Below the pieces are notes generated by a model that searched no databases, was not told the DNA's origin, and saw nothing but the letters and a program-made list of their open reading frames with translations. A DNA stretch of 64,000 nt. Origin: Rhodococcus jostii RHA1. Lineage in GTDB: Bacteria; Actinomycetota; Actinomycetes; Mycobacteriales; Mycobacteriaceae. The stretch spans positions 1,674,001 through 1,738,000 of the forward strand of contig NC_008268.1 of NCBI RefSeq assembly GCF_000014565.1, in the 5' to 3' direction. Positions 8,925 through 53,873 of the stretch are shown here, piece by piece. Positions within the stretch are counted from its first letter, which is position 1. Every line of letters begins with the position of its first letter. The position numbers and the translations under genes were made by a program.

Positions 8925-8987
8925 GCCCCTCCACCGACCCGGGCCTTTCCGCCCGCGGCAGGGCCGGTGCTAGGGTCGGCTTGTTCT

Positions 8988-9061
8988 GACACGGGGTGCT
9001 CCGCACGGGCGGGGCTGAGAACACACCCGGGAACCTGCTCAGGTAATGCTGACGAAGGGAT
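8988..9061 (+). promoter_or_regulatory. TPP riboswitch (THI element)
   Basis: The conserved THI-box pieces are present in order: ACGGGGTGC (8991-8999), GGGCTGAGA at 9012-9020, ACCC near 9025, GAACCTG at 9031-9037, and CAGGTAATGCTGACGAAGGGA ending at 9061 (positions 9040-9061). It ends nine bases before the tenA start, and the GAAGGGA end segment overlaps the expected ribosome-binding region, so thiamine pyrophosphate probably represses translation of the operon directly, as in other actinobacteria. Confidence 0.92.
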
Positions 9062-9070
9062 GTCAACGTT

Positions 9071-9793
9071 GTGAATAGCTCTGTCCAAGATGCTGCCGGC
9101 GCCGGCCAGCACGCCCGATTCACGGACCACTTGTGGGACCGGACCAAGGTGCTGCGCGAGGCGATCGACGAACTCGAGTTCCTGCGCCGCCTCGGCGACG
9201 GAACGCTGCCGCTGGACGTGTTCCGCACGTACATCGAGCAGGATTTCCTGTACCTGACCGGGTACGCGAAGGCCCTCTCACTGGTGGCCGCGCACGCGCC
9301 GGGCCCGGTCGAGGCCGGCTTCTGGGCGGGTTCGGCCGCCGAGGCCGCCACGGTCGAGGCCACGCTGCACCAGAATCTGCTGACCAGCGGACAACTCCCC
9401 GAGTCGGACGTGGAGCCGCTGCATTCGCCGGCCTGCCTCGGGTACATCTCCTACCTGACGGCCGTCGCCGCCACCGAGCCGTACGCGGTGGCCGCCGCGG
9501 CGGTGCTGCCCTGCTTCTGGATCTACGCCGACGTCGGGCACCGGCTCGCGGCGAGCGCCCGCGAGGTGCTTTCCGCCGACCCGTCGCACCCGTACGCACA
9601 GTGGGTGACCACCTACGACGCGGAGGAGTTCCACGCCGCCGTCGCGAGGGCCCGCGAACTCGTGGATGCCGCGGCCGAGGCCGCGACCGACGCCCAGCGC
9701 GAGGCGATGACGGAGGCGTTCGTGATCGCCAGCCGCTACGAACTCATGTTCTGGGACACCGCTCTCAACAAGCAGGAATGGCCGGCGTCGTGA
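9071..9793 (+). CDS. tenA: TenA-family aminopyrimidine aminohydrolase
   Basis: 240 aa, GTG start right behind the TPP riboswitch. TenA hydrolyses 4-amino-5-aminomethyl-2-methylpyrimidine to HMP, salvaging base-degraded thiamine. The all-helical TenA/THI-4 fold is recognisable from FRTYIEQDFLYLTGYAKAL and from LPCFWIYADVG, where Cys148 matches the catalytic cysteine, followed by the YDAEEF and late YELMFWD segments. It is first in a riboswitch-controlled operon with a pyrimidine ABC transporter, which fits the known salvage route. The stop overlaps the next start (GTGA). Confidence 0.9.
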   Translation: MNSSVQDAAGAGQHARFTDHLWDRTKVLREAIDELEFLRRLGDGTLPLDVFRTYIEQDFLYLTGYAKALSLVAAHAPGPVEAGFWAGSAAEAATVEATLHQNLLTSGQLPESDVEPLHSPACLGYISYLTAVAATEPYAVAAAAVLPCFWIYADVGHRLAASAREVLSADPSHPYAQWVTTYDAEEFHAAVARARELVDAAAEAATDAQREAMTEAFVIASRYELMFWDTALNKQEWPAS

Positions 9794-13975: not shown

Positions 13976-14965
13976 ATGAGCACTGCGACTTACGAATTCT
14001 GCCCGTCACCCCTCCCGGTGACGCGGCGGGAGTTCGCCGGAGCCAGCCTGCAGTCGACGGCCCTCGCCCACACACTCCGACGCACGGTCCGGCCGTTCCT
14101 GGACGGGTGGGCGCGCTACCCCGAACTGCCGTGGCCCACGGGAGTCGTCGACCTGTTCGGGTACTCGCTCGGTCCCATCCGCGGAACCGTGCGCAGGCCC
14201 ATCCGGCTGCCGCACTGCCGCGCCGAATGGATCCGGCCGCCGGGTGAGCTCGGCGACCGGGCGATCCTCTACCTCCACGGCGGGGCGTTCCTGTGCTGCG
14301 GGATCAACTCCCACCGCCAGATGGTGTCCCGGATCTCGGCGGAGTCGCAGGCGTCGACGCTGAACGTCGCGTACCGGATGATCCCGCGGAATCCCATCCG
14401 GGCGGCCGTCGAGGACGGTGTCGACGGGTACCGGTGGCTGCTCTCGCACGGCTACACCGCAGACCGGATCGTCATCGCCGGCGACTCGGCGGGCGGGTTC
14501 CTGACGTTCATGGTGACGCTCGAAGCGCTGCGCCAGGGGTTGCCGCGTCCCGCCGCCGACGTCGCGCTGTCGCCGCTGACCGACCTCGATCCGGTGAACA
14601 AGCTGGCCCATCCCAACGCCGACCTCTGCGCTGTCTTCCCCAAACGCGCGGTCGGTGCCCTGTCCAGGCTGATCGAAAGGCTGGACACCAGGGGCGGGCA
14701 CGAGCCGTCCACGTCACCCGTGGACGGCTCCCTCGCCGCCATGCCGCCGGCGCTGATCCAGACCGGCTCGCAGGAAATGGTCTACGTCGACGCGGAACTG
14801 ATGTCCGAGCGGCTGTCCCAGGCGGGTGTGCCGTGCGAACTGCAGGTGTGGGAACGGCAGGTGCACGTCTTCCAGGCCGCCGCCGGACTGCTCCCCGAGG
14901 GCACCCGCGCCATCCGCGAGATCGGCCGGTTCATCCGCAAGGCCACACCCGTGAGTACTTCTTAA
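13976..14965 (+). CDS. Alpha/beta hydrolase, hormone-sensitive-lipase-like
   Basis: 329 aa. HGG at residues 101-103 forms the oxyanion hole and GDSAGG (169-174) holds the nucleophile Ser171; the pattern is the HSL/family IV esterase class. The triad His is probably in the late VHVFQ segment. GGAGG lies six bases before the chosen ATG at 13976, and an upstream GTG frame at 13919 lacks a site. Divergent from the WS/DGAT acyltransferase, so it may hydrolyse the ester products or related lipids. The final codons run into a hairpin shared with the convergent ferredoxin gene. Confidence 0.85.
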   Translation: MSTATYEFCPSPLPVTRREFAGASLQSTALAHTLRRTVRPFLDGWARYPELPWPTGVVDLFGYSLGPIRGTVRRPIRLPHCRAEWIRPPGELGDRAILYLHGGAFLCCGINSHRQMVSRISAESQASTLNVAYRMIPRNPIRAAVEDGVDGYRWLLSHGYTADRIVIAGDSAGGFLTFMVTLEALRQGLPRPAADVALSPLTDLDPVNKLAHPNADLCAVFPKRAVGALSRLIERLDTRGGHEPSTSPVDGSLAAMPPALIQTGSQEMVYVDAELMSERLSQAGVPCELQVWERQVHVFQAAAGLLPEGTRAIREIGRFIRKATPVSTS

Positions 14966-14995
14966 CCGCCCCGGACGTTGACAAGTACTCACGGG
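14948..14995. terminator. Long hairpin between two convergent genes
   Basis: Perfect 13-bp arms, CCCGTGAGTACTT (14948-14960) and its complement (14983-14995), around a 22-bp loop. The esterase stop lies in the loop and the ferredoxin stop at 14989-14991 lies in the right arm, so the structure ends both transcripts. Its outer bases CCCGTGAGT match the dispersed 48-bp palindromes found further along, although the inner part differs. Confidence 0.65.
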
Positions 14996-15321
14996 GTGAA
15001 GAGGTGGTTCCGGTCGAGCGTGGACCCCGGCGTGCGACGGCCACCCCACCCGATCACGGCGCGGTAGGCGCCGAGCGCCCCGGACTCCGCCAAACCCTCG
15101 GCGTCGGTGTGCGTCGAGTCCTCGGGAACCGGGGTGTCGAACGGCGCGACATACAGCGCGTCGGTCGGACAATTCGCTTCACACATGAAGCATGTCTGAC
15201 AGTCCTCCTGATGCGCGACGACGGGAACCCCGTCCGTGCCGCGGCGGAAGACGTCCGTCGGGCAGACCTTGATGCAGATGTCGCACTGCACGCAGCGGTC
15301 GGCGACGACGACCTCGATCAC
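14989..15321 (-). CDS. Two-cluster [4Fe-4S] ferredoxin-type subunit (pair A)
   Basis: 110 aa from a GTG overlapping the flavoprotein stop (GTGA). Two Cys motifs, CVQCDICIKVCP and CQTCFMCEANCP, should bind two [4Fe-4S] clusters; the rest is a short tail. Fusion-free flavoprotein plus diferredoxin pairs resemble the AprA/AprB and fumarate-reductase-like layout, where the ferredoxin carries electrons to or from the flavin subunit. It is a paralogue of the ferredoxin at 51.8-52.1 kb. The function of either pair is unknown to me. No membrane segment is present. Confidence 0.82.
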   Translation of the reverse strand: MIEVVVADRCVQCDICIKVCPTDVFRRGTDGVPVVAHQEDCQTCFMCEANCPTDALYVAPFDTPVPEDSTHTDAEGLAESGALGAYRAVIGWGGRRTPGSTLDRNHLFTP

Positions 15322-16895
15322 GACGCGACCGTCCGGGCCTCGGCGGTTCCGTGTTCCGGCCGCACCCACACCTCGCCCAGTCCGCCCGACAGCAGTCGAC
15401 GGGTCTGCGCCGGATCGGTGTCGGGCAGGTCGGTGCGCACGTGCATTCCCCTGGTCTCGGTCCGCGCCAGCGCGGAGTGCGTCGACCACCGCGCGACGGC
15501 GAGCATCGCGGCGGCCGAACGTGCCTGCAGCAGCTCCCGTTCGGTGCCGCCGAGCAGATCGGCGGCACCCGACCAGGCCTCGTCGAGGGCGGTCACGCTG
15601 TCCTGCAGGCTCGTCGCGCTGCGCCGGTAGCTGCGTCGCAGCGGCAGGGTGTGCTCCTGCACCAGTCCGACGATGGAGCGCGACGCCTGCCGGCGGGCCG
15701 ACGGTCCGCGCAGTCCCGCCGCGCCCGCGCCGCGCACCCTGTCGGGGACGGGACGCGTCCGCGCGAACCGGGCGGCACCCGCGCCGGCCCACGTCCCCGA
15801 GGAGATGGCCCACGCCCCGTTGTGGCTGCCGCCGCCGCTGCGACCGCCGGTGATGAGCTCCCGGGTTGCCGCGTCGCCCGCCACGAACAGGCCGGGAACG
15901 TCGCTGGCGCAGTCGGTGCCGGCGACCCGGATGCCGCCGGTTCCGCGCACCGTACCCTCCAATACGGCTCGCACGGGATACTTCTGCGTGAACGGGTCGA
16001 TGCCCGCCTTGTCCAGCGGCAGAAAGTAGTTCGGTTGCGAGGTGCGCATGGCTGCGCGAATGTCGGGTCTGGCCCGGTCCAGTCGCGCATACACGGGGCG
16101 GCCGGCGGCGAGGTGCGCCATCGCGGCGCCGCGTGCGGAGAAGCCGCCGTCGCCCAGCGTCCGACCGTCCGCGTCGTAGTAGGTGGCGAACTGCATCATC
16201 AAACCCTTGGTGTGGCCACTCCACGCCGGTGCCAGCGCGTAGGCCGTCGAGAATTCCATGCCCGAGAACGATGCCCCGACCTCGGCGGCCATCAGCAGTC
16301 CGTCGCCGGTGTCGACGTTCGTCCCGAAGCTTCCGGACATGAAGGCGCAGCCGCCGGTCGCGACGACCACTGCCCCGGCGCGCACCGACCACGGCGCGTA
16401 TCCGTTCTGCCGTTGCAGACCCGCGGCACCGGACACGACGCCGTCACCGGTGGTGAGCAGTTCCAGGGCGGGGCTGTGGTCGAGGATGGTGACCCCGGCG
16501 CGGTGCACGCGCCTGCGCATCCGACGCATGTACTCCGGCCCCTGCAGGCTGGTGCGCACCTCCCGGCCGTCGTCGCCGGACGGAAACCGGTAGCCGGCGC
16601 CTGCCAGTTCGTCCACCCGGTGGTGGGTCTCCTCGAGGACCCGGTACATCCAGGCCGGCTCCGACAGCCTGCCGCCGTCCTCGAAGCGAGCCTGCACCGA
16701 CCGTTCGCGTGCCGGCCCGGGCGGGACATTCCACAGGTTGTTGCCGCCCGACGCGGTGGGACCGCTGGTGCCGCAGTACCCCTTGTCGGCGAGGACGACC
16801 CGCGCGCCGTCCCGGGCCGCCGCCAGTGCCGCCCACGTTCCGGCGGGTCCGCCGCCGAGGACGAGGACGTCGGCGTCGATCTCGAGCCGGCTCAC
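15318..16895 (-). CDS. FAD-dependent oxidoreductase, fumarate reductase/AprA-like (pair A)
   Basis: 525 aa, GTG start that overlaps the stop of a 29-codon ORF by four bases. N-terminal dinucleotide fold VLVLGGGPAGTWAALAAA binds FAD, followed by DKGYCGTSGPTASGG, an FRD/SDH flavoprotein-like loop. A later VPGLFVAGDAA segment is the second FAD-binding motif and GGGSHNGAWA sits near the active site. C-terminal residues ~400-525 form the helical domain of this superfamily. It is encoded with a diferredoxin and strongly resembles the protein at 52.1-53.7 kb. Substrate unknown; an AprA-like or dehydrogenase role is only structural analogy. Confidence 0.8.
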   Translation of the reverse strand: MSRLEIDADVLVLGGGPAGTWAALAAARDGARVVLADKGYCGTSGPTASGGNNLWNVPPGPARERSVQARFEDGGRLSEPAWMYRVLEETHHRVDELAGAGYRFPSGDDGREVRTSLQGPEYMRRMRRRVHRAGVTILDHSPALELLTTGDGVVSGAAGLQRQNGYAPWSVRAGAVVVATGGCAFMSGSFGTNVDTGDGLLMAAEVGASFSGMEFSTAYALAPAWSGHTKGLMMQFATYYDADGRTLGDGGFSARGAAMAHLAAGRPVYARLDRARPDIRAAMRTSQPNYFLPLDKAGIDPFTQKYPVRAVLEGTVRGTGGIRVAGTDCASDVPGLFVAGDAATRELITGGRSGGGSHNGAWAISSGTWAGAGAARFARTRPVPDRVRGAGAAGLRGPSARRQASRSIVGLVQEHTLPLRRSYRRSATSLQDSVTALDEAWSGAADLLGGTERELLQARSAAAMLAVARWSTHSALARTETRGMHVRTDLPDTDPAQTRRLLSGGLGEVWVRPEHGTAEARTVAS

Positions 16896-16981
16896 GAAGC
16901 GAACAGCATCGCCGACGCGACGACGGCCGCCCCGGTTCGTTCGGACAGCGGGCGGCGGAACAACCAGTCGAGTAGAGACAT
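16892..16981 (-). CDS. Possible 29-residue small protein coupled to the flavoprotein
   Basis: An ATG at 16981 is preceded by GGGGGT with a five-base gap. The frame runs 29 codons and its TGA overlaps the GTG of the flavoprotein gene, the same coupling used between flavoprotein and ferredoxin. The peptide begins MSLLDWLFRRPLSE and ends in a short hydrophobic stretch (AAVVASAMLFAS), so it could be a tiny membrane-associated subunit or just a translational leader. The second flavoprotein pair has no such ORF that I can see. Support is the start site, spacing and overlap only. Confidence 0.45.
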   Translation of the reverse strand: MSLLDWLFRRPLSERTGAAVVASAMLFAS

Positions 16982-17184
16982 CGTTACCCCCGGTCGGAGC
17001 GGTATGGACACCGCTCGATCGTCGGCTGACCGGCTCGTCCGAACAAGGGTTCTCGTCAGCGTGCGCCGAACCCCGGCAACCATCCAGCGAACCCGCCCCG
17101 ACGACTTACCTTCCGGACACATGCGGCAGCAGGCGGCACCGCCCTCTATGGTGGACGCATTTGCACGCCGAGGACGGGTAGCGC

Positions 17185-17736
17185 ATGGACGACAGGACTG
17201 TAGCGATCGGGGCACTCGCGATTGCCACCGTGTCGGCGGTCTCCGGCCTGATGATCGGCGCCGCGGGCGGCGCGTTCGGCAACCGCGGGCCGGCAGTCGC
17301 GCCACCGCCGCTGACGTCGGAGGGCCTGCAAGCCGCCGGGCCCTACAGCGCCGCACCGGCCACCTTCCAGGTGTTCGTCCCGCCGACCCCCACCTGGCAG
17401 ATGGCCGACCTCACCACCCCGCGGGCCGTCACGCTCACCACCGAACCGGCGCCGGTGACCACGGCGCCGCCGCCCGCGCCCTCGACGACCCCCGCCCCGC
17501 CTCCGCCGGTCCGGACCACGGTCGCGCCGCCTCCGCCGACGATCAGCCTGGCCCCGGTCACCACACCCGTCACCCGGCCTCCCGTGATCGCGACGACCGA
17601 GCAGTCCGTGCCCCGGATCGCCGCCCCGCCGTCCGCGGCACCCGCGGAGCCGACGCTGCCGCCGGTCACCACCACTACGACGACGACGCGTCCGGTGATC
17701 ACCATCCCGCCCGTCACCACCAGACCGCGGGGCTGA
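17185..17736 (+). CDS. Membrane-anchored or secreted Pro/Thr-rich protein
   Basis: 183 aa. Residues ~6-33 are a hydrophobic segment rich in Ala/Gly that would act as an uncleaved anchor or signal peptide. The rest is low complexity, dominated by Pro, Thr, Ala and Val (APPPAPSTT, PPPPVRTTVAPP and a Thr run near the end), as in cell-wall-spanning or glycosylated actinobacterial proteins. No enzyme motif. It lies directly upstream of WXG and EspG-like genes on the same strand, so it could be an envelope component of that ESX-related group, but that is inference. Confidence 0.6.
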   Translation: MDDRTVAIGALAIATVSAVSGLMIGAAGGAFGNRGPAVAPPPLTSEGLQAAGPYSAAPATFQVFVPPTPTWQMADLTTPRAVTLTTEPAPVTTAPPPAPSTTPAPPPPVRTTVAPPPPTISLAPVTTPVTRPPVIATTEQSVPRIAAPPSAAPAEPTLPPVTTTTTTTRPVITIPPVTTRPRG

Positions 17737-17838
17737 CGCTCACCCGAGCCTTTCCGAGAGCAGCAGTCGGTAAGGTGGCTTCCCGCCGGATTGGGGGGTC
17801 CACTCCGGGACCGTGAGTGTCCAGTATCGGAGGTCGGG

Positions 17839-18756
17839 ATGAATGGCGGGGAGAATTTTCGGTCGGGCGAGTGGGATCACCACGCCATCAGGAGTGCGGT
17901 CGACGCGCTGAGGCCCGCCGAGTCCGGTGCGGTCGCCGCGGCCTGGGACGACCTCGGACGGCGATTCCAGGAGTCGGTGACCGCGTTCCACGACGCGACC
18001 CGGGCCGCGGTCGACACCGGCTGGCGTGGGCCGACCGCGACCGCGGTGGCTTCTTCACTCGACGACTACGCCGCCCGCGCCGGGCAGGTCGGTGGCCGGT
18101 TCACCGATGTGGGCGATGCGTTGCGGCACGCGACGGCCGGAGCCGAAGCGGTGCGCGGCGCGGTCGGCAGGCCCGGCGACCACCCGGCCGACTGGACCCG
18201 GGTGCTGCCCGTCAACTGGACCGCGGAAGCCGACGCCGATGCCGCGGAACAGAACGCGAAGGCCGCCATGGACAACCTCTACACCTCGGCGTATCGCGTT
18301 GCGGACGAACAACTCCCCGCTGCCGGCCTCGCCGCGACCCACGCCGCGGCAACGGCCCACGGTCAGCCGGTGGGCTTCGACATCGGACCGAACGGGGTGC
18401 ACGGCATACCCAGCGATCAGCAGGTGGCCGAGCCCGAATCCGATTCCGTCCCGCGCAATGAGCACCGCAGGAGCGGCGAGGTGCCGCTCGAAGACTCGCC
18501 GGCGACCGCCCAGGCCGCGCCGGGTTCGATCGCGGGTGCGGCGCTGGCCGGGGCCGTCGGCGGCGGGGTGGCGCAGTACGCGCGCAGCATCGTGTCCGCT
18601 CACCGGACGATCACCCCCGAGCGGCCGGGCGGCCCGGTCCTGCCCGCCGCCCGGGAGGACGAGGCGGAACCCCCGACCTACCTCGAAAGCATCGACGAGG
18701 AAAGCGAACTCGTCGGGAAACTGCCCCTCGTCACACCCGCGGTGATCGGCGAATAG
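17839..18756 (+). CDS. WXG100/PPE-like ESX substrate candidate
   Basis: 305 aa from the ATG at 17839, with GGAGG six bases upstream. The first ~130 residues are helical with a WRG motif (Trp62-x-Gly64) in the turn between two helices, as in WXG100 and PPE proteins exported by type VII secretion. A late YESID-like acidic region and an Ala/Gly-rich stretch near residue 235 follow. The next gene encodes an EspG-like protein two bases downstream, the usual chaperone partner of PE/PPE substrates, which strengthens the call. No PE partner and no ESX core genes are in the window. Confidence 0.65.
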   Translation: MNGGENFRSGEWDHHAIRSAVDALRPAESGAVAAAWDDLGRRFQESVTAFHDATRAAVDTGWRGPTATAVASSLDDYAARAGQVGGRFTDVGDALRHATAGAEAVRGAVGRPGDHPADWTRVLPVNWTAEADADAAEQNAKAAMDNLYTSAYRVADEQLPAAGLAATHAAATAHGQPVGFDIGPNGVHGIPSDQQVAEPESDSVPRNEHRRSGEVPLEDSPATAQAAPGSIAGAALAGAVGGGVAQYARSIVSAHRTITPERPGGPVLPAAREDEAEPPTYLESIDEESELVGKLPLVTPAVIGE

Positions 18757-18758
18757 AC

Positions 18759-19436
18759 GTGGGGCACTGGGTGTTGAGCGGTCCGCAGTTCTCGGCGTTG
18801 TGGGCACTGACCGGACAGGACCGCATTCCGTATCCGTTCAAGGTCACGAGCACGCTGGCCACCGCCGACGAGTACGCGGCGGAGCAGCGTCGGATCCGCG
18901 CCGACTTCTCCGGCCCCGAACACGACCCGCTCGGGTCGGCGCTGCTGGTGCTCGCCGAACCCGACCTCCGGATCGAGATCTCCGGTTCGGCAGGTGCGGA
19001 CGGCGGTACCTCGATCCGCATGACGGGCGCCCTGGCACGCGGGCACGGGATCGCGGCGATGCAGCATCCGGGCGCCGAAGTGGTGATCCGGAGCTGCGAA
19101 CCGTACGACGTCGGCCGGCAGCTGATCGCTCAGCTCCCCGACACCGACGCGGGCACGGCGGCGGGCATCGTGGTCCCGCCGACACCGGCCGGGAGCACAC
19201 GGGCAGCCCGGATCCTCGACAGGCCCTCGACGAGCCAGGGGGTCGTCACCGTCGTCCGCGGCTCGCGGCACTCACCACGCCCCGTCGGCGGTCTGGCGTG
19301 GCGGGACATCGAGGGCGACGGCCGGTACCTCGTGTGGGGCGACACCGCCGTGGCGGTGGAACCGGGCACGTCGTGGCACCTCCTCGACGCCGTCACCCGG
19401 CTGACCGGACGGATCGCGGCCGGTCACCCCGTCTGA
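18759..19436 (+). CDS. EspG-family ESX secretion-associated protein
   Basis: 225 aa, GTG start two bases after the previous stop. The sequence matches the EspG family: an N-terminal LSGPQFSALWALTG segment, a central PEHDPLGSALLVLAEPDLRIEI strand pair, a SCEPYDVGRQLIAQLP helix and a C-terminal half with a similar order of strands. EspG proteins are cytoplasmic chaperones that bind PE/PPE pairs and deliver them to a cognate ESX machine. The genetic coupling to a WXG-motif protein fits. Which ESX system it serves cannot be read from here. Confidence 0.72.
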   Translation: MGHWVLSGPQFSALWALTGQDRIPYPFKVTSTLATADEYAAEQRRIRADFSGPEHDPLGSALLVLAEPDLRIEISGSAGADGGTSIRMTGALARGHGIAAMQHPGAEVVIRSCEPYDVGRQLIAQLPDTDAGTAAGIVVPPTPAGSTRAARILDRPSTSQGVVTVVRGSRHSPRPVGGLAWRDIEGDGRYLVWGDTAVAVEPGTSWHLLDAVTRLTGRIAAGHPV

Positions 19437-19506
19437 GCCCGCCACCCCCTCCTGCGCTGCGGTCTCGGCGATCGCCGCTACCGTATAGAGCGGAAGTAGG
19501 TGACTC

Positions 19507-20865
19507 GTGGTCGACCCGGACGGAGCAGACATGCAGGACTTCGATCTGGATTCGAGCGTGAACCGCGACTGGGCCGAGTTCCAGCGGCGCCTCGCGGACT
19601 ATCTGGCAGCGATGCAGGACGAGGACCTTCTGGTCCTCGAATCGGGGTTCGAGGAGCTCGACGAATCCCAGGGGCTGATGCCGTGCATCCAGTTCGTCGT
19701 GTGGGACGGGGACACGGTGCGCTGCGAGGTGCCGTCGAACCATTACCTGCACCCCGACCGCGCACTGACCGAGGCCGAACAGACGTACCTCACCGAGCTG
19801 GGCTGGAACCGGCCGACCCGCGGTCCGGACGACGAACCCGACGACGGCTCCCCCGCGTTCTACGTCGACAAGAAACTGTCGTGGTCGGATCAGCTGGCCG
19901 CGATGGCCGTGGCCGCGTTCCGCGACGTCTGGGGAATCACCCATCCCGCGTTCCTGAGCACCGAGACGTCGAGTACGGATCCCGAGGCCACGTTCGACCC
20001 GGTTGCGGTGCGGCCACCGCTGGTCGCGCAGCTCGACCCCGCAGCCGCCGTGGTCCCGCGCGACGTCGAGCACCTCCACGAACTGATCACACTCGCGTTG
20101 GTCCCGATGCTCGGGCTGCTGCCCGAACGCGACCCGGACGGCGACGTCCCGATCCGGATGGGCAACACCATCCTGTTCGTCGGCCCGCTCGCCGACACCG
20201 TCGACGTGCAACTGTTCGCGCCGCTGGTGCACGACATCAGCGACCGCACCCGGGCCGCCGAGGTCACCGCCGACCTCAACCGCACGTGGTCGCGGATCAA
20301 GTTCGTGCTGGTCGACGACCGGTTGTCGGCGTTCCTGGAAGTGTCGGGCAACCCGTTCGTCCCGCAGCACCTCACCGACAGCTGCAAGGCGTTCTCCGAT
20401 TTCCTGCGCACCGTCGACAACGAGTTCGCGTCGCGGTTCGGTGGCGAACTGTTCTTCAACCGCGACTCCGGCCCCGACGAGGAACCCGAACCGGACGCGT
20501 CGCCTGGCACCGAGAGCCGGATGTCGTCGACCGACCTGCCGAAGGAACTTCAGACGCTGTTCCATCTCGACCCCGGGCCCGGAAGCGACACCGATCCGGC
20601 TGTCGTCGCCGACGTCTGCGGTCACGACCGCGATCGGATCCTCGTGCTCCTGGACACCGGCACCGCCTGGGTGTCCCGGTTGCGGGAGACCGACGACGCG
20701 TCCGCCGACCAGTGGGAGCGCATCGTCGGCGCCCTCCGCCACGCCCTCCGGACCGTCGTGCTGCCACCGACGACGGGCGCTCCCGACACCAAGCCACGGC
20801 CCGAGCAGATGGGACTGTTCACCAATCCCGAGGAGCAGACCCTGTTCGACGATCCGTCGTCCTAG
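19507..20865 (+). CDS. YbjN/TY-Chap-like domain protein
   Basis: 452 aa, GTG start with AGGTGAC just upstream. The central part (HELITLALVPMLGLLPERDPDGDVPIRM then LFVGPLADTVDVQLFAPLVHDI) has the alternating strand/helix pattern of the YbjN and type III secretion chaperone-like (TY-Chap) domains that actinobacteria carry in multidomain proteins; a similar order may occur in both the N- and C-terminal thirds. It is acidic and lacks a signal peptide. Position after a WXG/EspG pair suggests a peptide-binding role near ESX secretion, but this is not established. The family call is from memory of the fold pattern. Confidence 0.6.
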   Translation: MVDPDGADMQDFDLDSSVNRDWAEFQRRLADYLAAMQDEDLLVLESGFEELDESQGLMPCIQFVVWDGDTVRCEVPSNHYLHPDRALTEAEQTYLTELGWNRPTRGPDDEPDDGSPAFYVDKKLSWSDQLAAMAVAAFRDVWGITHPAFLSTETSSTDPEATFDPVAVRPPLVAQLDPAAAVVPRDVEHLHELITLALVPMLGLLPERDPDGDVPIRMGNTILFVGPLADTVDVQLFAPLVHDISDRTRAAEVTADLNRTWSRIKFVLVDDRLSAFLEVSGNPFVPQHLTDSCKAFSDFLRTVDNEFASRFGGELFFNRDSGPDEEPEPDASPGTESRMSSTDLPKELQTLFHLDPGPGSDTDPAVVADVCGHDRDRILVLLDTGTAWVSRLRETDDASADQWERIVGALRHALRTVVLPPTTGAPDTKPRPEQMGLFTNPEEQTLFDDPSS

Positions 20866-20960
20866 AAGCCGCCCTTTCGACGATCGATCCGGGTTTCCCG
20901 GGATGTGGCGTACTGTCAGCACTATCGGAGCCGTCCAGGTTCCGCATTCAGGGATGGTCC

Positions 20961-21095
20961 ATGGCTGACAAATCGCCCCGCAATTCCATGTCGAAGAAAT
21001 CCGGTAAGTCGCTGAAGGAGAAGCGCGCCGACAAGAAGATGAAGACGAACGGACAGAGCGATCCGGAAATCGTCTCGCACGTCAAGAAGCGCTAG
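20961..21095 (+). CDS. Small basic protein, 44 aa
   Basis: Starts at an ATG with GGGATGG-type purines upstream; 44 residues, very rich in Lys (KKSGKSLKEKRADKKMK) and ending in VKKR. Short Lys-rich proteins of this type occur widely in Corynebacteriales; function unknown, nucleic-acid or ribosome contact is a guess. The IS630 element inserted exactly at its stop: the TA of the TAG belongs to the target duplication and the G is the first base of the element. The bases beyond the element regenerate TAG, so the protein is unchanged with or without the insertion. Confidence 0.65.
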   Translation: MADKSPRNSMSKKSGKSLKEKRADKKMKTNGQSDPEIVSHVKKR

Positions 21096-22241
21096 TGGTG
21101 TGTCTCGCAAATAAATATGGATTGATTCGATAGAATCCGTGCATGAGGAATCCGGTACCCGCTTTGCAGATTTCCGATGGGCAGCGTGTTGTGCTCGAGT
21201 CGTTGGCGCGGTCGCAGACGGGTGCGCACCGGGAGGTGGTGCGGGCCAAGGCGCTGTTGATGGCGTCCGAGGGTGTGGCCAACACGGCTATCGCGCAGGC
21301 GTTGTCGGTATCGCCGGGATCGGTGGCGAACTGGCGGACACGGTTCGCTGAAGATGGCATGGCGCGGTTGGGCGAGGTGCGCAAGGGTCGAGGTCGCAAG
21401 CCCTCGATCCCGCAGGAGAAGATCGACGAGATCGTGGACCTGACGCAGAACTACCGCCCGAAAGGCGAGACTCATTGGAGTTGCCGGACGATGGCCGAGT
21501 ATGTCGGAGTCTCGAAGGACACGGTCCAGCGCGTGTGGTCCGCTCGTGGACTCAAGCCGCACCGGGTCGAGACGTTCAAGCTGTCGAATGATCCGCGATT
21601 CGAGGACAAGCTCGTCGACGTCGTCGGTCTGTATCTGAACCCGCCCGAGCGGGCGATCGTGTTGTGCGCGGACGAGAAGTCGTCGGTGCAGGCCCTCGAC
21701 CGGACGCAGGCCTCGCTCCCGATGATCAAGGGCCGCGGCGAGACGATGACCCACGACTACAAGCGTCACGGCACCACCACCTTGTTCGCCGCGCTCGACG
21801 TCCTCACCGGCACCGTGATCGGCCAGTGCCTGCCGCGCCACCGCCATCAGGAGTTCCTGCGATTTCTGCGAACCATCGACCGTGAGGTGCCCAAGGACCT
21901 GGAAATCCACCTGATCCTGGACAACTACGCCACCCACAAACACGAGAAGGTCCGGGCCTGGCTCGACAAGCATCCACGGTTCCACCTGCACTTCACTCCC
22001 ACCTCCTCCTCATGGCTCAACCTCGTCGAACGTTGGTTCCGAGAGCTGACCGATAAAGCTCTGCGACGCGGGGTCTTTCACTCCGTACCGCACCTCATCG
22101 CCTCGATCGAGGAATACCTCGACGCCCACAACGAAAACCCCCGACCCTACGAATGGACCGCGACCGCCGAATCCATCCTCGCCAAGGTCGCCCGCGGCCG
22201 CGTCGCACTCGAAAAGATCAGCTAAATCAGAGACACACCAC
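21095..22241 (+). mobile_element. IS630-family insertion sequence
   Basis: About 1147 bp. Perfect 12-bp terminal inverted repeats (GTGGTGTGTCTC at 21095-21106 and its complement at 22230-22241) are flanked by TA on each side (21093-21094 and 22242-22243), the TA target duplication typical of IS630/Tc1-like elements. It holds one intact transposase gene. Base composition near the ends is AT-richer than the host DNA. It looks complete and possibly still active. Confidence 0.92.
21143..22225 (+). CDS. IS630-family transposase
   Basis: 360 aa in a single open frame. The N-terminal ~110 residues carry two helix-turn-helix-like units (ALSVSPGSVANWRTRF and YVGVSKDTVQRVWSARG) that bind the terminal repeats. 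The catalytic DDE domain has Asp177 in LCADEKS, Asp260 in LILDNYATHKH and Glu296 in NLVERWF, with 35 residues between the last two. All three are present, so the enzyme should be functional. Unlike fused-frame IS630 members it needs no frameshift. Confidence 0.93.
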   Translation: MRNPVPALQISDGQRVVLESLARSQTGAHREVVRAKALLMASEGVANTAIAQALSVSPGSVANWRTRFAEDGMARLGEVRKGRGRKPSIPQEKIDEIVDLTQNYRPKGETHWSCRTMAEYVGVSKDTVQRVWSARGLKPHRVETFKLSNDPRFEDKLVDVVGLYLNPPERAIVLCADEKSSVQALDRTQASLPMIKGRGETMTHDYKRHGTTTLFAALDVLTGTVIGQCLPRHRHQEFLRFLRTIDREVPKDLEIHLILDNYATHKHEKVRAWLDKHPRFHLHFTPTSSSWLNLVERWFRELTDKALRRGVFHSVPHLIASIEEYLDAHNENPRPYEWTATAESILAKVARGRVALEKIS

Positions 22242-22249
22242 TAGCGCCC

Positions 22250-22295: not shown

Positions 22296-23694
22296 TCAGG
22301 CGACGACGGAGCGCTGGGGGACACCCGAGTACTCGCTGAGCGGGCGAATCGAACTGTTCGACGCGCCCTGCTCGATGATGTGGGCGGTCCACCCGGTGAT
22401 CCGGCTCATCACGAACATCGGCGTGAACATTTCCACGTCGAATCCCGTCAGGTAGTTCGCCGGACCGGTCGGGAAGTCGAGATTCGGCGCGATCCCGGTG
22501 GCGCCGGCCATCGTCTTCTCCAGGATGTCGTACATCCGCATCCACTTCTCGCCGCCGGTGGCGGCGGCGATGTCGAGCAGTGCCGCCTTGATCGTCGGCA
22601 CCCGCGAGTCACCGTTCTTGTAGACCCGGTGACCGAAACCCATCACCTTCTCCTTGGCAGCGAGTTTGCCCAGCAGCCACTCCTCGGCGCGGTCGGGCTC
22701 GCCGATCTCGAGCATGTCGTGCATGACGGCCTCGTTGGCGCCGCCGTGCAGCGGACCCTTCAACGCCCCGATCGCCGCGGTGACCGCACTGTAGATGTCG
22801 GACAGTGTCGACGTCACCACGCGGGCCGCGAACGTGGACGCGTTGAAACTGTGCTCCGCATACAGGATCAGCGACACCTCGAACGCTGTGACGACGGCCG
22901 CATCGGGCACGTCCCCGAAGCACATGTTCAGAAAGTTCTCCGCGAACCCCAGGTGCGAGTGCGGTGCGATCGGGTCCTGTCCGCGCCTGCGCCGGATGTC
23001 TGCGGTCACGATCGTGGGCAGCACCGCCGTCATGCGCAGCGCCTTCGCGAGGTTCTCGGACGGCGAATTGTCGTCCCCCGCCGGGTCTTCCGCGCCGAGT
23101 AGCTGATCGCCGTGCGCACCACGTCCATGGGGTGGCAGTTGTCGGGCATCTTCGCCAGCAGTGGCAGCAGGGAGCGGTCGACCCGGCGTGCCGCCCGCTC
23201 ACGCTGGCAGAGTAGTTCCAGTTGCGCAGGGTAGGGAGTTCGCCGTACCAGTGCAGATACGCCACCTCCTCGAAGCTGCAGTGCGCTGCCAGGTCCTGCA
23301 CCGCGTAGCCCCGGTAGGTCAGCGAATTGGTCTCCGGCACCACCTTGGAGATGGCGGTGGTGTCGAGGACGGTGACGGTGCACGCCGCGCTCATCGGTTC
23401 CCCGAACCCGGTGTCGGCGTCGATCAGGACCGTCAGGTCGGTGACGCGGGCGATCTGCTGCCCCCGTCCCGCGACCTCGGTCAGAGTGGTCAGCCCGATG
23501 TCGGGCAGGGCGAGATCCGCGGAGACGACGGCGCCTGAGACGTACACGCCCTCGAAGCCGATCCCCTGGATCGGTTTGGCCACCAACGGGTTGAACGCTC
23601 CGGGCAGACGTTGCAGCGTGCCCGAGTCGAGCCCGGCCCGGAATGCTTTCCACTTGTCCGCCGCCGACGTGGCCGCGGCGATCAGCCCGCTCAT
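22296..23694 (-). pseudogene. Chimeric prpB::prpC pseudogene (methylisocitrate lyase/2-methylcitrate synthase)
   Basis: From the ATG at 23694 the first ~111 codons are methylisocitrate lyase (PAFNPLVAK-type start, FEGVYVSGAVVSADLALPD, LIDADTGFGEP), lacking the catalytic Cys region further on. At about 23361 the frame passes directly into 2-methylcitrate/citrate synthase (TTAISKVVPETNSLTYRGYAVQDLAAH). The synthase part then has two frameshifts, near 23230 and near 23100, and continues in a third frame with the catalytic segments GPLHGGANEAV and VMGFGHRVYK and a normal C-terminus. So a deletion fused the middle of prpB to prpC, and later single-base losses killed the product. prpD is absent. 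Confidence 0.85.
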
Positions 23695-23699
23695 CGGAA

Positions 23700-24873
23700 C
23701 AGTCCCGTGTCGTTGGCGGAGATCGACGAACTCGTCGCCCGGATGCCCGCCGTGGGGCGCACGCTCGTGACGCTGCACCGCCGGTTGCGGGCGACCACCG
23801 ATCAGCTCGACCAGTTCTCGGCGCAGATCTCCGGGGACGCGGCGCCGGACCCGGCGCACGTTCCGATGCCCTACGAGGAGGTGCGGGACTTCCTCTAAGA
23901 TCGGCGCAACCATATCGGCCGCCTCGACGACGCCGCCGCCGCCGAGGAGATGTTCAGGGGCAACGGACTGTCGATCGGCGCGCTGGACCTCCAGTTGGCC
24001 CGCATCCTCCGCGACCGGCACGGGGTGACGGTGCGCATCCGCACCGACTAACCGGATCAGCTGGGCCCCAAGCGGCTTTACGACGCCGAGGCGGGAATGC
24101 TGACGCTGCCCGTCGGCTCTCCGCCGGTCAGCGCGCATTCCAGATCGCGATGCAGGTGGCGTTCTTCACGCAGTCGGAGACGATCGACGCGATCGTCGCG
24201 GAGGACGAGTCGCTGACCGCCGAATCCGCCGCGCTCGCGCGAATCGGGTTGGCTCACTACTTCGCCGGGGCGCTGATCCTGCCGTATACGCTGTTCCTGG
24301 GTGCCGCCGAATCGCTCCACTACGACATCGACCTGCTGAGCCTGAAGTTCGAGGTGGGGTTCGAGACGATTTTGTCACCGGCTGTCGACGCTGCAACGGC
24401 CGGGTCAACGCGGCGTCCCGTTCTTCTTCGCCCGCACCGACCGCGCCGGGAACATCTCGAAGCGACAGTCCGCCACAGCGTTCCACTTCTCCCGGGTGGG
24501 CGGCAGCTGCCCGCTGTGGGTGGTCCACGAGGCGTTCGCGAGTCCGGGGAGGATCCTCACGCAGGTGTCGAAGATGCCCGACGGGCGCGCCTACCTGTGG
24601 ATCGCGCGCACCACCCACAGCGGCGGTCTGGGATATCTCGCCCCGGAACGCAATTTCGCGATCGGCCTCGGCTGCGACATCGGGTACGCCGATCGGCTGG
24701 TCTATTCACGCGGAATCCAGACGGACGACCCGAGCACGGTCGTCCCGATCGGCGCGGGCTGCAAGGTGTGCGACCGGCCCGCGTGCGCGCAACGCGCCTT
24801 CCCGCAACTGGGCCGGGCCGTCCTCGTCAACGAGAACAGCAGCGGCCATCTCCCGTATCCGCAGGGCCGGTAG
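23700..24873 (+). pseudogene. Degraded PrpR/RamB-type regulator pseudogene
   Basis: Fragments of the short-chain acyl-CoA-responsive regulator family (ScfR; PrpR, RamB). Readable pieces in order: LAEIDELVARMPAVGRTL (from 23710), stop at 23896, DDAAAAEEMFRGNGLSIGALDLQLARIL, stop at 24049, frameshift near 24115, AFQIAMQVAFFTQSETID and HYFAGALILPYTLFL, frameshift near 24370, then FFFARTDRAGNISKRQSA through to CDRPACAQRAFPQLGR at the end. The N-terminal XRE-type HTH that should precede is missing; the gene abuts the prpB' start with no promoter region. In relatives PrpR is divergent from prpDBC, matching this orientation. Confidence 0.82.
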
Positions 24874-24882
24874 GCGCTCCGC

Positions 24883-24930
24883 GCCCGTGCGCGGTTAACG
24901 AGTCCAGGGACTCGTCAACCACTCACGGGC
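24883..24930. repeat. 48-bp dispersed palindrome, copy 1
   Basis: Begins GCCCGTGCGCGGTTAACGAGT, loop CCAGGG, ends with the near-complement ending CACGGGC. It follows the stop of the prpR pseudogene by a short GGCGCTCCGC linker. Member of the family described at 38803-38850, the most perfect copy. Confidence 0.85.
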
Positions 24931-25014
24931 GGTAACGCTGCTCGCAACCGTGACGACTAGGACTTCGGATGCTCCTTCGTTCGGGGTGAGCGCCTGCGAC
25001 ACGGGTGGGGGCAC

Positions 25015-28967: not shown

Positions 28968-28988
28968 GAGGGAGAGCCTAGGCCTACG

Positions 28989-29036
28989 GCCCGTGAGTGG
29001 TTAACGAGTGCAGGCACTCGTCAACCGCGCACGGGC
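28989..29036. repeat. 48-bp dispersed palindrome, copy 2
   Basis: GCCCGTGAGTGGTTAACGAGT then loop GCAGGC then ACTCGTCAACCGCGCACGGGC. It lies between the start of the methyltransferase gene and the end of the quinone oxidoreductase gene, both on the minus strand, so it follows the 3' end of the latter. It has two mismatches between arms at the GTTAAC/GTCAAC and the AGT/CGC positions. Confidence 0.85.
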
Positions 29037-29048
29037 GGCGGAGCCGCC

Positions 29049-30041
29049 TCACCGGAGGGTGAGGACACTCTTCCCGACGGTTCGGCGGTGTTCGAGGTCG
29101 AGCAGGGCCTCGGCTGCCGCTCCGAACGGGTACCGGGTCGGCTCCGGAATCGTCAACGCGCCAGACGCGAGCAAGGGACACAATTCGCTCCACTGCGCGG
29201 ACAGCCGTTGGGGGTCCTCGGCCCACCACGAGCCCCACGCGACTCCGACTGCGGACGCGTTCTTCAGGAGCAGTCGGTTCACTTTCACCGAGGGGATGTC
29301 CCGGCCGGTGAAGCCCATCACGAGAATCCTCCCGCCCGTCGCCAGGGATCGGACGCTGTCGGTGAATCGATCGCCCCCGACCGGGTCGACCACGACGTCC
29401 ACCCCGCGGCCGTCGGTGATCGCGAGGACCTCGTCCCGCCAGTTCCCGGTGGCCACGACGTCGGAGGCGCCGAGACTCCGCACGTACTCCGCCTTCTCCT
29501 CACTGCTGACGACCGCGATGGTCCGCGACGCGCCGAGGTGAGGCGCCAGTGTGACCCCGGCGGTGCCGATGCCTCCAGCCGCACCCTGGACGAGCACCGA
29601 CTCCCCCGCCTCGAGGCGTCCACGACATACCAGCGCGAAATGCACGGTGAGGTAGTTGAACAGCACGGCGGCTCCCGCGGCCATCGAAATCGTGTCCGGG
29701 AGGGAGAACGTCGTCTCCGGCGGCAGTGCGACCACTTCGGCCATCGCGCCGCCCACACCGGTCAATCCGACGACCCGGTCGCCCGGAGAATATCCGCTGC
29801 CGTCAGGGGCTGACCGCACGATCCCGGCGACCTCGCCGCCCGGGACGAACGGCAGTTCCGGCTTGTACTGGTACCTGCCCTGGGTGAGAAGCAGATCCGG
29901 GAACGACACCCCGACCGCGTGAACCTCGACGAGGATCGCGGATTCGTCCGCGACGGGTTCGTCGACCTCGACCGCGGCGAGCGCCCGGGGACCGTCGAGC
30001 GCGGTGACCATCAGTGCGCGCATGCGGTTGTGCCCGTTCAT
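29049..30041 (-). CDS. Zinc-free NADPH:quinone oxidoreductase (MDR family)
   Basis: 330 aa. Medium-chain dehydrogenase/reductase of the quinone oxidoreductase/Yhdh-like class: GVSFPDLLLTQGRYQYKP at the N-terminus, NADPH-binding VQGAAGGIGTAGVTLA, and no zinc-ligand cysteines. Related proteins beside acyl-CoA genes reduce enoyl groups or quinones. Starts at the ATG overlapping the acyl-CoA synthetase stop (ATGA), so it is the last gene of a three-gene operon with an MHS transporter and acyl-CoA synthetase. It may act on an unsaturated intermediate of the same pathway. Confidence 0.82.
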   Translation of the reverse strand: MNGHNRMRALMVTALDGPRALAAVEVDEPVADESAILVEVHAVGVSFPDLLLTQGRYQYKPELPFVPGGEVAGIVRSAPDGSGYSPGDRVVGLTGVGGAMAEVVALPPETTFSLPDTISMAAGAAVLFNYLTVHFALVCRGRLEAGESVLVQGAAGGIGTAGVTLAPHLGASRTIAVVSSEEKAEYVRSLGASDVVATGNWRDEVLAITDGRGVDVVVDPVGGDRFTDSVRSLATGGRILVMGFTGRDIPSVKVNRLLLKNASAVGVAWGSWWAEDPQRLSAQWSELCPLLASGALTIPEPTRYPFGAAAEALLDLEHRRTVGKSVLTLR

Positions 30042-37135: not shown

Positions 37136-37711
37136 ATGAGCGACAAGTACGACGCCAACCGGGACCGAGTCCTGCAGGTGGCCGCCGAATTGTTCGCGAA
37201 GTCTGGCTACCACGGCACCGGGGTCGCCGAGATCGGTGAGGCCACCGGGCTGGGCCGGGGCGCGCTGTACCACTACATCGGCAGCAAGGAGGCAATCCTC
37301 TACGAGATCAGCAGCCGGCAACTCGCGCAAATGAACACGGTCGCCGACGAACTCGCGCTGTCCGAGGCCGACCCGGAGAAACGGCTGCGCGGCCTCGCAC
37401 GGGCGCTCATGCGGAACATCGCCGAGCACCGTGCCGAGTGGACGGTCTTCTTCCGCGAGTACCACGCCCTGACGGACGAGCGTCGCGATCGCATCATCGC
37501 CGAACGTGAACGCTACGAATCCCATTGGCGGAACGCGCTGGAGCAGGGCATCCGCGACGGACAGTTCCGTGCCCTCCCGCGGCTGATGGTCAAGGGCCTG
37601 CTGGGCATGTTCAACTACAGCTACCTCTGGATCACCCCCGCGGGCGCCGAGACACCCGAGGAGATCGCGGACGAGTTCCTCGACGCCGTTGTCACGGGGA
37701 TGCGGGCGTGA
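37136..37711 (+). CDS. TetR-family regulator, tandem copy 2
   Basis: 191 aa, ATG start 54 bp after copy 1. The HTH is almost the same as in copy 1 (VAAELFAKSGYHGTGVAEIGEATGLGRGALYHYIGSKEAIL), so both should recognise the same or nearly the same operator; differences collect in the C-terminal ligand domain (LPRLMVKGLLGMFNYSYLWITP). Copies could form heterodimers or divide ligand responses. The gene ends directly at palindrome copy 3. Confidence 0.85.
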   Translation: MSDKYDANRDRVLQVAAELFAKSGYHGTGVAEIGEATGLGRGALYHYIGSKEAILYEISSRQLAQMNTVADELALSEADPEKRLRGLARALMRNIAEHRAEWTVFFREYHALTDERRDRIIAERERYESHWRNALEQGIRDGQFRALPRLMVKGLLGMFNYSYLWITPAGAETPEEIADEFLDAVVTGMRA

Positions 37712-37721
37712 GGCGCTCCGC

Positions 37722-37769
37722 GCCCGTGCGCGGTTAGCGAGTCTCTGCACTCGTTCGCCACGCACGGGC
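37722..37769. repeat. 48-bp dispersed palindrome, copy 3
   Basis: GCCCGTGCGCGGTTAGCGAGT, loop CTCTGC, then ACTCGTTCGCCACGCACGGGC. It follows the second TetR stop after the linker GGCGCTCCGC, the same linker as copy 1. Confidence 0.85.
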
Positions 37770-37780
37770 GGCGTAGCCGC

Positions 37781-38379: not shown

Positions 38380-38793
38380 ATGTCTGCACAACACGGAGTT
38401 CACGCAGTCGAGAATTTCTGGGCCCGGGTGTGGCAGTCACCCCAGGACCCCCATGCGATCGACGAGCTCGTCGTCGACGACTTCGTCATCGTCACCGGTG
38501 GAGAGGCGATCCGCGGCCGGGACGCCTTCAAGGAATGGGTGCTGAAGTTTCAGTCGACCGTCGAGGACCTGGAGTTCATCCCCGTCGAAACGTTCCAGAA
38601 CGAGGACGGTTCCCGCGTCGCGTCGCTGTGGGAGATGACCGGCCGCAATCGCGGATTCATGGGCACCGAGCCCGACGGGCAACCCATTCACCTGACGGGC
38701 ACCGCGGTGTGGAACGTCCGCGCCGACGGGATGCTCGAATCCAACCGCGTCGAGCGCAATGCCTGGGAGCTGCACCGGCGGCTGACGGCCTAG
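38380..38793 (+). CDS. SnoaL/NTF2-like polyketide-cyclase-fold protein
   Basis: 137 aa with the NTF2-like alpha+beta barrel pattern: an opening helix (AVENFWARVWQSPQDPHAIDELVVDDFVIVT), GREAFKEWV, then strands with GTAVWNVRADGMLESNRVER. Such proteins either isomerise/cyclise small ligands or simply bind them; no catalytic residue can be assigned. AAGGAA precedes the ATG. It is the apparent target of the upstream HxlR regulator, which suggests expression in response to an electrophilic or aromatic compound. Confidence 0.75.
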   Translation: MSAQHGVHAVENFWARVWQSPQDPHAIDELVVDDFVIVTGGEAIRGRDAFKEWVLKFQSTVEDLEFIPVETFQNEDGSRVASLWEMTGRNRGFMGTEPDGQPIHLTGTAVWNVRADGMLESNRVERNAWELHRRLTA

Positions 38794-38802
38794 GCGCTTC
38801 GC

Positions 38803-38850
38803 GCCCGTGCGTGGTTAACGAGTGCAGAGACTCGTTAACCACGCACGGGC
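38803..38850. repeat. 48-bp dispersed palindrome, copy 4 (best copy)
   Basis: Perfect 21-bp arms: GCCCGTGCGTGGTTAACGAG plus T on the left (38803-38823), exact complement on the right (38830-38850), loop GCAGAG. It follows the SnoaL-like stop (TAG at 38791) by the linker GCGCTTCGC and is followed by GGCGGAGCCGCC leading to the convergent dehydrogenase gene end. The strong stem should terminate transcription from both sides. Confidence 0.9.
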
Positions 38851-38861
38851 GGCGGAGCCGC

Positions 38862-39956
38862 CTACCTGGCTGCAGCGATGCGGGCCTCGGCGACGGCGTC
38901 GGCTGCGGCGCCGGCGAGGATGCCGTCCCGCTTCGCGACGTCGAGGATCTGTACGACGGTGGCGAAGATCTTCTCGACCTGCGCGCGGACGTCGTCGGCG
39001 GACGTGCCGAGCCGCTCGCCTGCGACCTGGATGAGTCCGCCGCCGTTGGCGACGTAGTCGGGAACCCAGGTGATGCCGCGTTCGCCGAGGTCGTGCTCGA
39101 CCGCGGGGTGGGCGAGCTGGTTGTTCGCGGCCCCGCAGATCACCTGGGCGGTGATCGCGGCGACGGACTCGTCGGTGAGCGTGGCGCCCATCGCGCAGGG
39201 TGCGTAGACGTCGAGTTCCTGGCCGATGACGCTGGACGCGATCTTGACCTCGGGGAAGTCGCGGGCCACCCGGTCGAGTGCGGCGGCGTTGACGTCGGTG
39301 GCGACCACCGACGCGCCGTCGGCGAGCAGAAGCTTGATCAGCTGGTAGCCGACCTTGCCGGTGCCCTCGACGCCGACGGTACGGCCGGCGAGGCTCGCGG
39401 TGCCCCACTTGGCCTGGGCGGCGGCGCGCATGCCCTGGAACACGCCGAGGGCGGTCATCGGGGCGCTGTCGCCGGACCCGCCGGCGGACGTGTTGCGTCC
39501 GACGACGTAGTCGGTGGCGCGGCCCATCACGTCGAGGTCGTCGGAGTTGGTGCCCACGTCGCCGGCGGTGATGTACCGGCCGCCGAGTGTCTGAACGAAC
39601 CGGGCGTACGCCTCGAGCAGCGCCTCCGACTTTCCGGTGGCCGGGTCGCCGATGATGACGGCCTTACCGCCGCCGAGGTCGACTCCGGCGATCGCCGACT
39701 TGTAGGTCATGCCCCGCGACAGGCGCAGGACGTCCTTGAGGGCGGCGGCTTCGTCGGCGTACGGGTAGAAGCGGGTTCCGCCGAGAGCCGGCCCGAGGGT
39801 GGTGTCGTGGATCGCGACGATCGCCTTGAGTCCGGTGGCGGGGTCCTGGAAGAACGTCACCTGCTCGTGGGCGGTGTCGGTGGGGAAATCGGTGCGCTCG
39901 AACACTCCAGCGTTTTCGGGCTGTGCGGTGTCGTGACGTTCCGCGGTGAGAGTCAT
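38862..39956 (-). CDS. Leucine/valine-type amino acid dehydrogenase (Glu/Leu/Phe/Val family)
   Basis: 364 aa. NAD-dependent oxidative deamination of a branched-chain or aromatic amino acid to its 2-keto acid. The catalytic region reads ALGGTRF, MTYKSAIAGVDLGGGKAVI (two key Lys residues), and the Rossmann fold GVEGTGKVGYQLIKLLL follows. Length and the GGGKAVI motif fit leucine/valine dehydrogenase better than glutamate dehydrogenase. It lies six bases behind the indolepyruvate oxidoreductase gene in one operon, so its keto-acid product is the natural substrate of that enzyme. Confidence 0.87.
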   Translation of the reverse strand: MTLTAERHDTAQPENAGVFERTDFPTDTAHEQVTFFQDPATGLKAIVAIHDTTLGPALGGTRFYPYADEAAALKDVLRLSRGMTYKSAIAGVDLGGGKAVIIGDPATGKSEALLEAYARFVQTLGGRYITAGDVGTNSDDLDVMGRATDYVVGRNTSAGGSGDSAPMTALGVFQGMRAAAQAKWGTASLAGRTVGVEGTGKVGYQLIKLLLADGASVVATDVNAAALDRVARDFPEVKIASSVIGQELDVYAPCAMGATLTDESVAAITAQVICGAANNQLAHPAVEHDLGERGITWVPDYVANGGGLIQVAGERLGTSADDVRAQVEKIFATVVQILDVAKRDGILAGAAADAVAEARIAAAR

Positions 39957-51702: not shown

Positions 51703-51759
51703 CCGCACCCCTGCCCCAGGTGACGACTGTTCCGGTGCCTCCAATCTAGCGGCTCCGCC

Positions 51760-53731: not shown

Positions 53732-53824
53732 GAAGGGCGCTCCTGTCGAGGCGGAACAACTGCCCTTCAACGCTTCCGCACATCGGCCCACGCCGCCATC
53801 GTCAGAATCAGCGTGAACCGAATC

Positions 53825-53872: not shown

Positions 53873-53873
53873 G

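Follow-up and report, generated by a model that had tools for sequence, protein, structure and literature searches.

A decayed methylcitrate cycle locus (prpR/prpDBC) in Rhodococcus jostii RHA1

A short stretch of the Rhodococcus jostii RHA1 chromosome, positions 22296-24873 of the window analysed here, is almost certainly the scar of a formerly complete, divergently arranged prpR / prpDBC locus of the methylcitrate cycle. The window is a stretch of 64,000 nucleotides on contig C1 (positions 1674001-1738000) of a genome of 9,702,737 bp in 4 contigs, of which C1 has 7,804,765 bp and C2 1,123,075 bp. In the RHA1 lineage, one deletion would have fused prpB to prpC, probably via a 4-bp TCGA microhomology, and a second would have taken prpD, the divergent promoter and the DNA-binding domain of prpR; frameshifts, stop codons and an IS630-type insertion are further lesions. 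The methylcitrate cycle is predicted to be non-functional in RHA1. Propionyl-CoA would be handled through methylmalonyl-CoA, and this route would explain why the loss of prp was tolerated. Our high confidence covers this explanation as a whole: the scar, the two deletions, the point lesions and the IS630-type insertion. The features are as follows (window positions).

21095-22241, plus strand: IS630-type element, transposase at 21143-22225, lying between the neighbouring gene and prpC
22296-23371, minus strand: prpC remnant (2-methylcitrate synthase), first approximately 25 residues absent, two 1-bp losses
23363-23371, minus strand: joint 1, prpB to prpC in frame, 635 bp missing, TCGA on both sides
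23363-23694, minus strand: prpB remnant (methylisocitrate lyase), approximately the first 110 residues, start codon kept
23706-23707, no strand: joint 2, flush, 1,922 bp missing compared to R. wratislaviensis
23707-24873, plus strand: prpR remnant of the ScfR/RamB type, helix-turn-helix (HTH) missing (tblastn, NCBIfam and alignment)

A sequence-only reading of the window had described a methylcitrate locus scar with a prpB::prpC chimera beside an HTH-less prpR, and every anatomical claim in it was borne out. The remnant pieces matched their own protein families in NCBIfam with E values of 6e-10 to 4e-131, and three remnant segments showed 93-96% DNA identity to a syntenic intact locus; chance resemblance is therefore excluded. 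The known Rhodococcus locus consists of a PRK14033 PrpC, a TIGR02317 PrpB, an NF042438 PrpD and a ScfR/RamB-type regulator. R. wratislaviensis NCTC 13229 (G026), R. jostii NBRC 16295 (G004, the type strain) and a plasmid of Rhodococcus sp. PD04 carry these four genes with the same divergent arrangement. In the two chromosomal relatives, prpR and prpDBC are complete and divergent with identical neighbours, and their PrpC, PrpB and PrpD score above the NCBIfam cut-offs. The RHA1 flanks (14001-21095 and 23707 onward) are collinear with both at 87-95% identity. Compared to this intact locus, RHA1 has lost all of prpD and most of prpB, and its prpC and prpR are truncated and frameshifted. Alignment to the intact Rhodococcus genes, proposed earlier as a check, found the joints and lesions in RHA1 and in neither relative. 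At least two separate deletions and point decay, as the earlier reading had it, are thus seen against intact syntenic loci of two relatives. Disabling lesions in RHA1 face intact orthologues at the identical site, which identifies the RHA1 genes as pseudogenes.

The prpB-prpC remnant was examined by tblastn with the four proteins of the intact locus on the plasmid of Rhodococcus sp. PD04. PrpB residues 1-116 matched at 23694-23347 and PrpC residues 26-75 at 23370-23221, both in frame -3, in agreement with the in-frame joint described from the sequence. PrpC residues 75-116 and 117-383 matched in two further frames, leaving PrpC as three fragments in three frames. The two frameshifts expected in prpC correspond to 1-bp losses near 23231 and 23099, which neither intact relative has. 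By NCBIfam, the C-terminal two thirds of a bifunctional 2-methylcitrate/citrate synthase lies at 22296-23033 on the minus strand; a second minus-strand ORF contains the methylisocitrate lyase N-terminus followed by a synthase piece, and a third synthase piece is found on the same strand in a different frame. No single frame encodes a full-length PrpC, the best fragment reaching 437 bits against a cut-off of 479, and PrpB covers 102 of 285 model positions with 104 bits against a cut-off of 354. The missing 635 bp and 1,922 bp were computed from alignment coordinates against R. wratislaviensis.

Because the frame is kept at joint 1, and a 361-codon ORF begins at the prpB start, we considered whether either product, the prpB::prpC fusion or the regulator lacking its HTH, is retained as a protein with a new function. 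The substitution pattern described below also offers no proof of relaxed selection. However, the ORF encodes PrpB residues 1-110 and about 50 residues of PrpC before it runs on out of frame, and an in-frame joining has a one-in-three chance of arising anyway. Two stops and two frameshifts interrupt the regulator. The same fusion in relatives, named beforehand as a result that would speak against decay, did not appear: no joint-spanning match was present among the matches listed in the other 27 genomes of the genus. A retained function is very improbable for either protein. Among 209 matching plasmid records, none covered 80% of the stretch in one place.

At joint 2, the sequence absent relative to R. 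wratislaviensis is prpD together with the divergent intergenic region and prpR codons 1-88. This agrees with the proposal that a deletion took prpD, the divergent promoter and the HTH. The intact R. wratislaviensis PrpR combines HTH (residues 10-63), IrrE-like and ScfRs domains. In RHA1, PrpR was matched by tblastn from approximately residue 93 onward, in two frames; since the match starts beyond residues 10-63, the HTH has been lost from RHA1 prpR, as had been noted from the sequence. Pieces of a RamB-type regulator were found by NCBIfam in three plus-strand ORFs. The HTH, IrrE-like and ScfRs domains do not occur together in any single frame of the remnant, and the ScfRs domain was detected in one of the two remnant ORFs scanned. 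The predicted two stops and two frameshifts were located: the stops lie at 23896 and 24049, and the frameshifts are a 1-bp loss at 24108 and a 1-bp gain at 24370. The remnant also has a 6-bp gain at 23931. The stops and indels are absent from R. wratislaviensis and R. jostii NBRC 16295. The intact PrpR homologues match the RamB model over its full length with 575 and 574 bits, below the equivalog cut-off of 700, so it is gene position and domain content that justify the name PrpR.

Single-base indels are a common class of error, and an intact locus could in principle be made to look broken by faulty sequencing or assembly, with the joints and frameshifts as artefacts. The lesions in RHA1 are too many and too varied for this: two joints (635 and 1,922 bp), two stops, a 6-bp gain, an IS insertion, and two genes with two frameshifts apiece. 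The assembly shows open reading frames for four flanking genes, and the sister genome G007 has a scar of its own at the site. We regard an artefact as extremely unlikely.

The earlier reading did not mention the IS630-type element beside prpC. TA is the target and the mark of IS630 elements. Here, the TA is doubled at 21093-21094 and 22242-22243, 12-bp inverted repeats can be read from the sequence, and the transposase carries a DDE_3 domain; the element thus has the DDE transposase, terminal inverted repeats and doubled TA target of the IS630 type. RHA1 contains seven copies including that in the window, the six others at 94-95% (four on C2, two on C1 and one on C3 for all seven). Neither R. 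wratislaviensis nor R. jostii NBRC 16295 has the element at this point. It was considered as the cause of the deletions and rejected: because neither joint falls within it, and the comparison with the relatives shows nothing but the doubled TA at the insertion point, the insertion is an additional lesion.

A dispersed palindromic repeat of about 60 bp was also observed in the window, at 24871-24934, 28979-29049, 37711-37771, 38791-38864, 51752-51804, 53824-53883 and 57975-58031, and many more copies occur in RHA1 and its relatives among the matches listed. The opening bases of the copy at prpR form the prpR stop codon; in two other genomes, G008 and G027, a similar palindromic element opens with the stop codon of the neighbouring gene. 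Such repeats could conceivably have caused deletion in G008 and G027, whose sites are clean and empty (see below), but not at the RHA1 joints. Elsewhere in the window, a TPP riboswitch (RF00059) was found at 8982-9077 with 57.5 bits.

The sequence-only reading had proposed that propionyl-CoA disposal rests either on another prp copy or on the methylmalonyl route. The search for a second intact prpDBC in the genome that it called for yielded none with PF00285, PF03972, PF13714, the PrpD protein and NCBIfam applied to candidate stretches. Because NCBIfam scored the matched stretches of candidates and not whole proteins, full-length scores could differ slightly. The PrpD protein search gave no match in the RHA1 genome, which accordingly lacks the PrpD of a functional prpDBC, while PrpD was present in 18 of 28 genomes of the genus with E values of 2.8e-199 or better. 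The sole PF03972 match in RHA1 reached 74 bits over part of the model, and its 146-residue stretch matched no NCBIfam family at 0.001. With PF00285 and NCBIfam, no other citrate-synthase relative in RHA1 had the PrpC model as best match; these relatives are GltA, three PRK12350-type proteins, one truncated PRK12350-type piece and a citryl-CoA lyase. The PRK12350-type match at L006 1501-1902 (C1:426022-426423) covers the C-terminal part of the model in a 221-aa open frame and is perhaps truncated. For PrpB, the closest stretch found with PF13714 had 78 bits against the cut-off of 354, and the best models of the remaining two matches were isocitrate lyase and PanB.

On the score of its PrpF-family protein, the AcnD/PrpF variant of the cycle was likewise rejected. 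The PrpF-family protein of RHA1 scored 200 bits against the PrpF cut-off of 441 and 244 bits against a 4-oxalomesaconate tautomerase cut-off of 440; it is nearer to the tautomerase and below both. By eye, none of the three further ORFs of 250 aa or more listed for its locus (L203) resembled AcnD.

The mutA-mutB-meaB set is intact in RHA1, with MutA, MutB and MeaB each above its family cut-off. Judged from gene content, propionyl-CoA in RHA1 most likely leaves by the methylmalonyl route. The choice that the earlier proposal left between two routes is thereby tipped firmly towards the methylmalonyl route. The suggestion of redundancy in a large genome fits in part: the redundancy is that of a second pathway and not of a second copy, and family genomes of many sizes are without a PrpD match.

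Within the genus, 10 of 28 genomes are without a full PrpD and all of these have both mutase subunits (one of them, G016, is 74% complete). Two of the 28 have no mutase, G013 and the 75% complete G019, and both have PrpD. With PrpD and no methylmalonyl-CoA mutase match, G013 (4.5 Mb) is the mirror image of RHA1. We also counted both functions in a family sample of 151 genomes that are at least 95% complete, with a PrpD cut-off of E 1e-100. PrpD was present in 73 and had no match at this cut-off in 78, of which 58 were counted without names. The mutase was present in 140 among the matches listed. On this basis, 63 genomes have both, 10 PrpD only, 77 the mutase only and one neither, so that PrpD occurs in 10 of 11 mutase-less genomes and in 63 of 140 mutase-bearing genomes among the matches listed (Fisher P = 0.004). 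The test counts relatives: seven of the 11 mutase-less genomes belong to one genus, and the independent evidence is therefore thinner than this P value suggests. Because absence of PrpD is common in the family, the loss of prp is in itself unremarkable. The RHA1 case is an ordinary gene loss that is well resolved, and it is of a known kind, a decaying operon backed by a second pathway.

Loss at the prp site is not unique to RHA1. G007 resembles RHA1 in having identical flanks with a prpC tail and the middle of prpR still in place (G007:C66, L048 9458-10244, which also holds a further prpC scrap). Unlike RHA1, it has deeper deletions with different joints, a 1-bp loss of its own and no extra base at 24370, and two genes downstream of prpR are also gone. 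Within the prpR stretch that the two share, to which the comparison is limited, no lesion was common to both. G007 contains a second prp remnant, a short prpD fragment in two pieces (G007:C34, L171 3655-3866). In R. koreensis DSM 44498 (G005), the left flank and a terminator were found with no prp, and the two following genes are nearly all missing. G008 and G027 are like RHA1 in that the native site holds no working prp locus; their sites are clean and empty, and prpDBC lies elsewhere, in G027 on a 306-kb contig. Unlike RHA1, these two and G010 possess a complete locus elsewhere, and its prpC belongs to a different clade. The prpC tree (18 rows, without G019 and G021, for which no fetched locus in use supplied a prpC) unites RHA1, R. 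wratislaviensis and R. jostii in one clade (100/100) and places the copies of G008, G010 and G027 in another (96/96). The latter copies therefore represent a different prp lineage, which was perhaps acquired.

We compared these states with a mutAB tree of 26 of the 28 genomes; G013 and G019, without a mut match, were left out, and the tree reflects one locus only. RHA1 pairs with G007 (80/72); R. wratislaviensis joins this pair (100/99), and R. jostii NBRC 16295 lies further out. On this tree, PrpD presence requires at least seven changes, and well supported branches impose five of these. Its clustering does not exceed that of shuffled labels: 118 of 500 shuffles gave a value as low. Since RHA1 sides in mutAB (loci L141-L166) with R. 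wratislaviensis NCTC 13229 rather than R. jostii NBRC 16295, its species name may not fit.

This distribution raises the question of whether the prp locus was an old resident of the site or a short-lived arrival, gained and then lost in some lineages. In R. tibetensis the neighbouring genes are 385 bp apart with no prp between them, and in R. marinonascens the neighbouring gene at the fetched locus was accompanied by no prp match. The clean empty sites of G008 and G027 also fit a late arrival, as do the prp loci on plasmids and on the 306-kb contig of G027. Against it, R. jostii NBRC 16295 and R. wratislaviensis share the site despite their distance on the mutAB tree. A late arrival is thus a reasonable possibility, but we do not favour it.

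The identity of RHA1 to R. wratislaviensis is 95.7% in prpC, 93.6% in prpB and 93.2% in prpR with the downstream sequence. We counted codon changes at positions 1+2 against position 3. The ratio was 29:41 for the RHA1 remnants, compared to 12:36 for the same segments on the R. wratislaviensis side (Fisher P = 0.08) and 46:82 for four flanking genes on the RHA1 side (Fisher P = 0.45). Neither contrast is significant, and relaxed selection is not evident in the substitutions. Either the decay is recent or the codon-position test is too weak.

In work on storage-lipid, aromatic and steroid metabolism, RHA1 serves as a reference strain.

A 2011 comparison grew both RHA1 and R. opacus PD630 on propionate as the sole carbon source and named the methylcitrate cycle as a propionyl-CoA degradation route (PMC3169528). 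On glucose, lipid with odd carbon numbers reached up to 40% in RHA1 and 30% in PD630 (PMC3169528). Odd-chain fatty acids of RHA1 exceeded 40% on benzoate and were below 30% on gluconate, and an up-regulated methylmalonyl-CoA pathway was proposed as the source of propionyl-CoA (PMC4850399). An efficient propionyl-CoA source was also inferred for RHA1 (PMC2667194). The parts of PMC3169528, PMC4850399, PMC2667194, PMC4676930 and PMC3068626 consulted here do not mention prp gene loss, and no title or abstract opening reporting prp loss in RHA1 was found in the open-licence literature.

These lipid data bear on whether removal of the cycle was favoured, sparing propionyl-CoA for odd-chain storage lipid. 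The figures for RHA1 on glucose and benzoate are in the direction expected from such an advantage, and prp has been lost repeatedly in the group. On the other hand, PrpD is without a match at the cut-off in 78 of the 151 family genomes, a commonness for which drift with a second pathway suffices; the difference between RHA1 and PD630 need not stem from the RHA1 scar, and prpDBC of a different lineage is present at another site in two relatives. Adaptive loss in RHA1 is therefore unlikely. We hold the wider form of the idea to be equally doubtful, namely that in the R. jostii/opacus/wratislaviensis group the cycle was lost repeatedly, and sometimes replaced, since its loss spares the propionyl-CoA that primes odd-chain fatty acids.

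With ordinary loss backed by the methylmalonyl route as our preferred reading, the published growth of RHA1 on propionate contrasts with a genome that shows no working methylcitrate cycle. Growth on propionate should consequently depend on the B12-dependent mutase. The high odd-chain fatty acid content of the strain is to be read without a methylcitrate sink, and the cycle should be removed from metabolic models of RHA1 that include it. The relatives with an intact locus at the same site are ready comparisons. The interest of the case lies in its occurrence in a lipid-model strain and in close relatives that repeatedly lack the locus or have it replaced: RHA1 serves as an odd-chain oil model, and the cycle it lost is a competing sink for propionyl-CoA. 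If the adaptive idea were true, RHA1 would amount to a prpDBC knock-out made by nature, and its odd-chain storage lipid would be raised.
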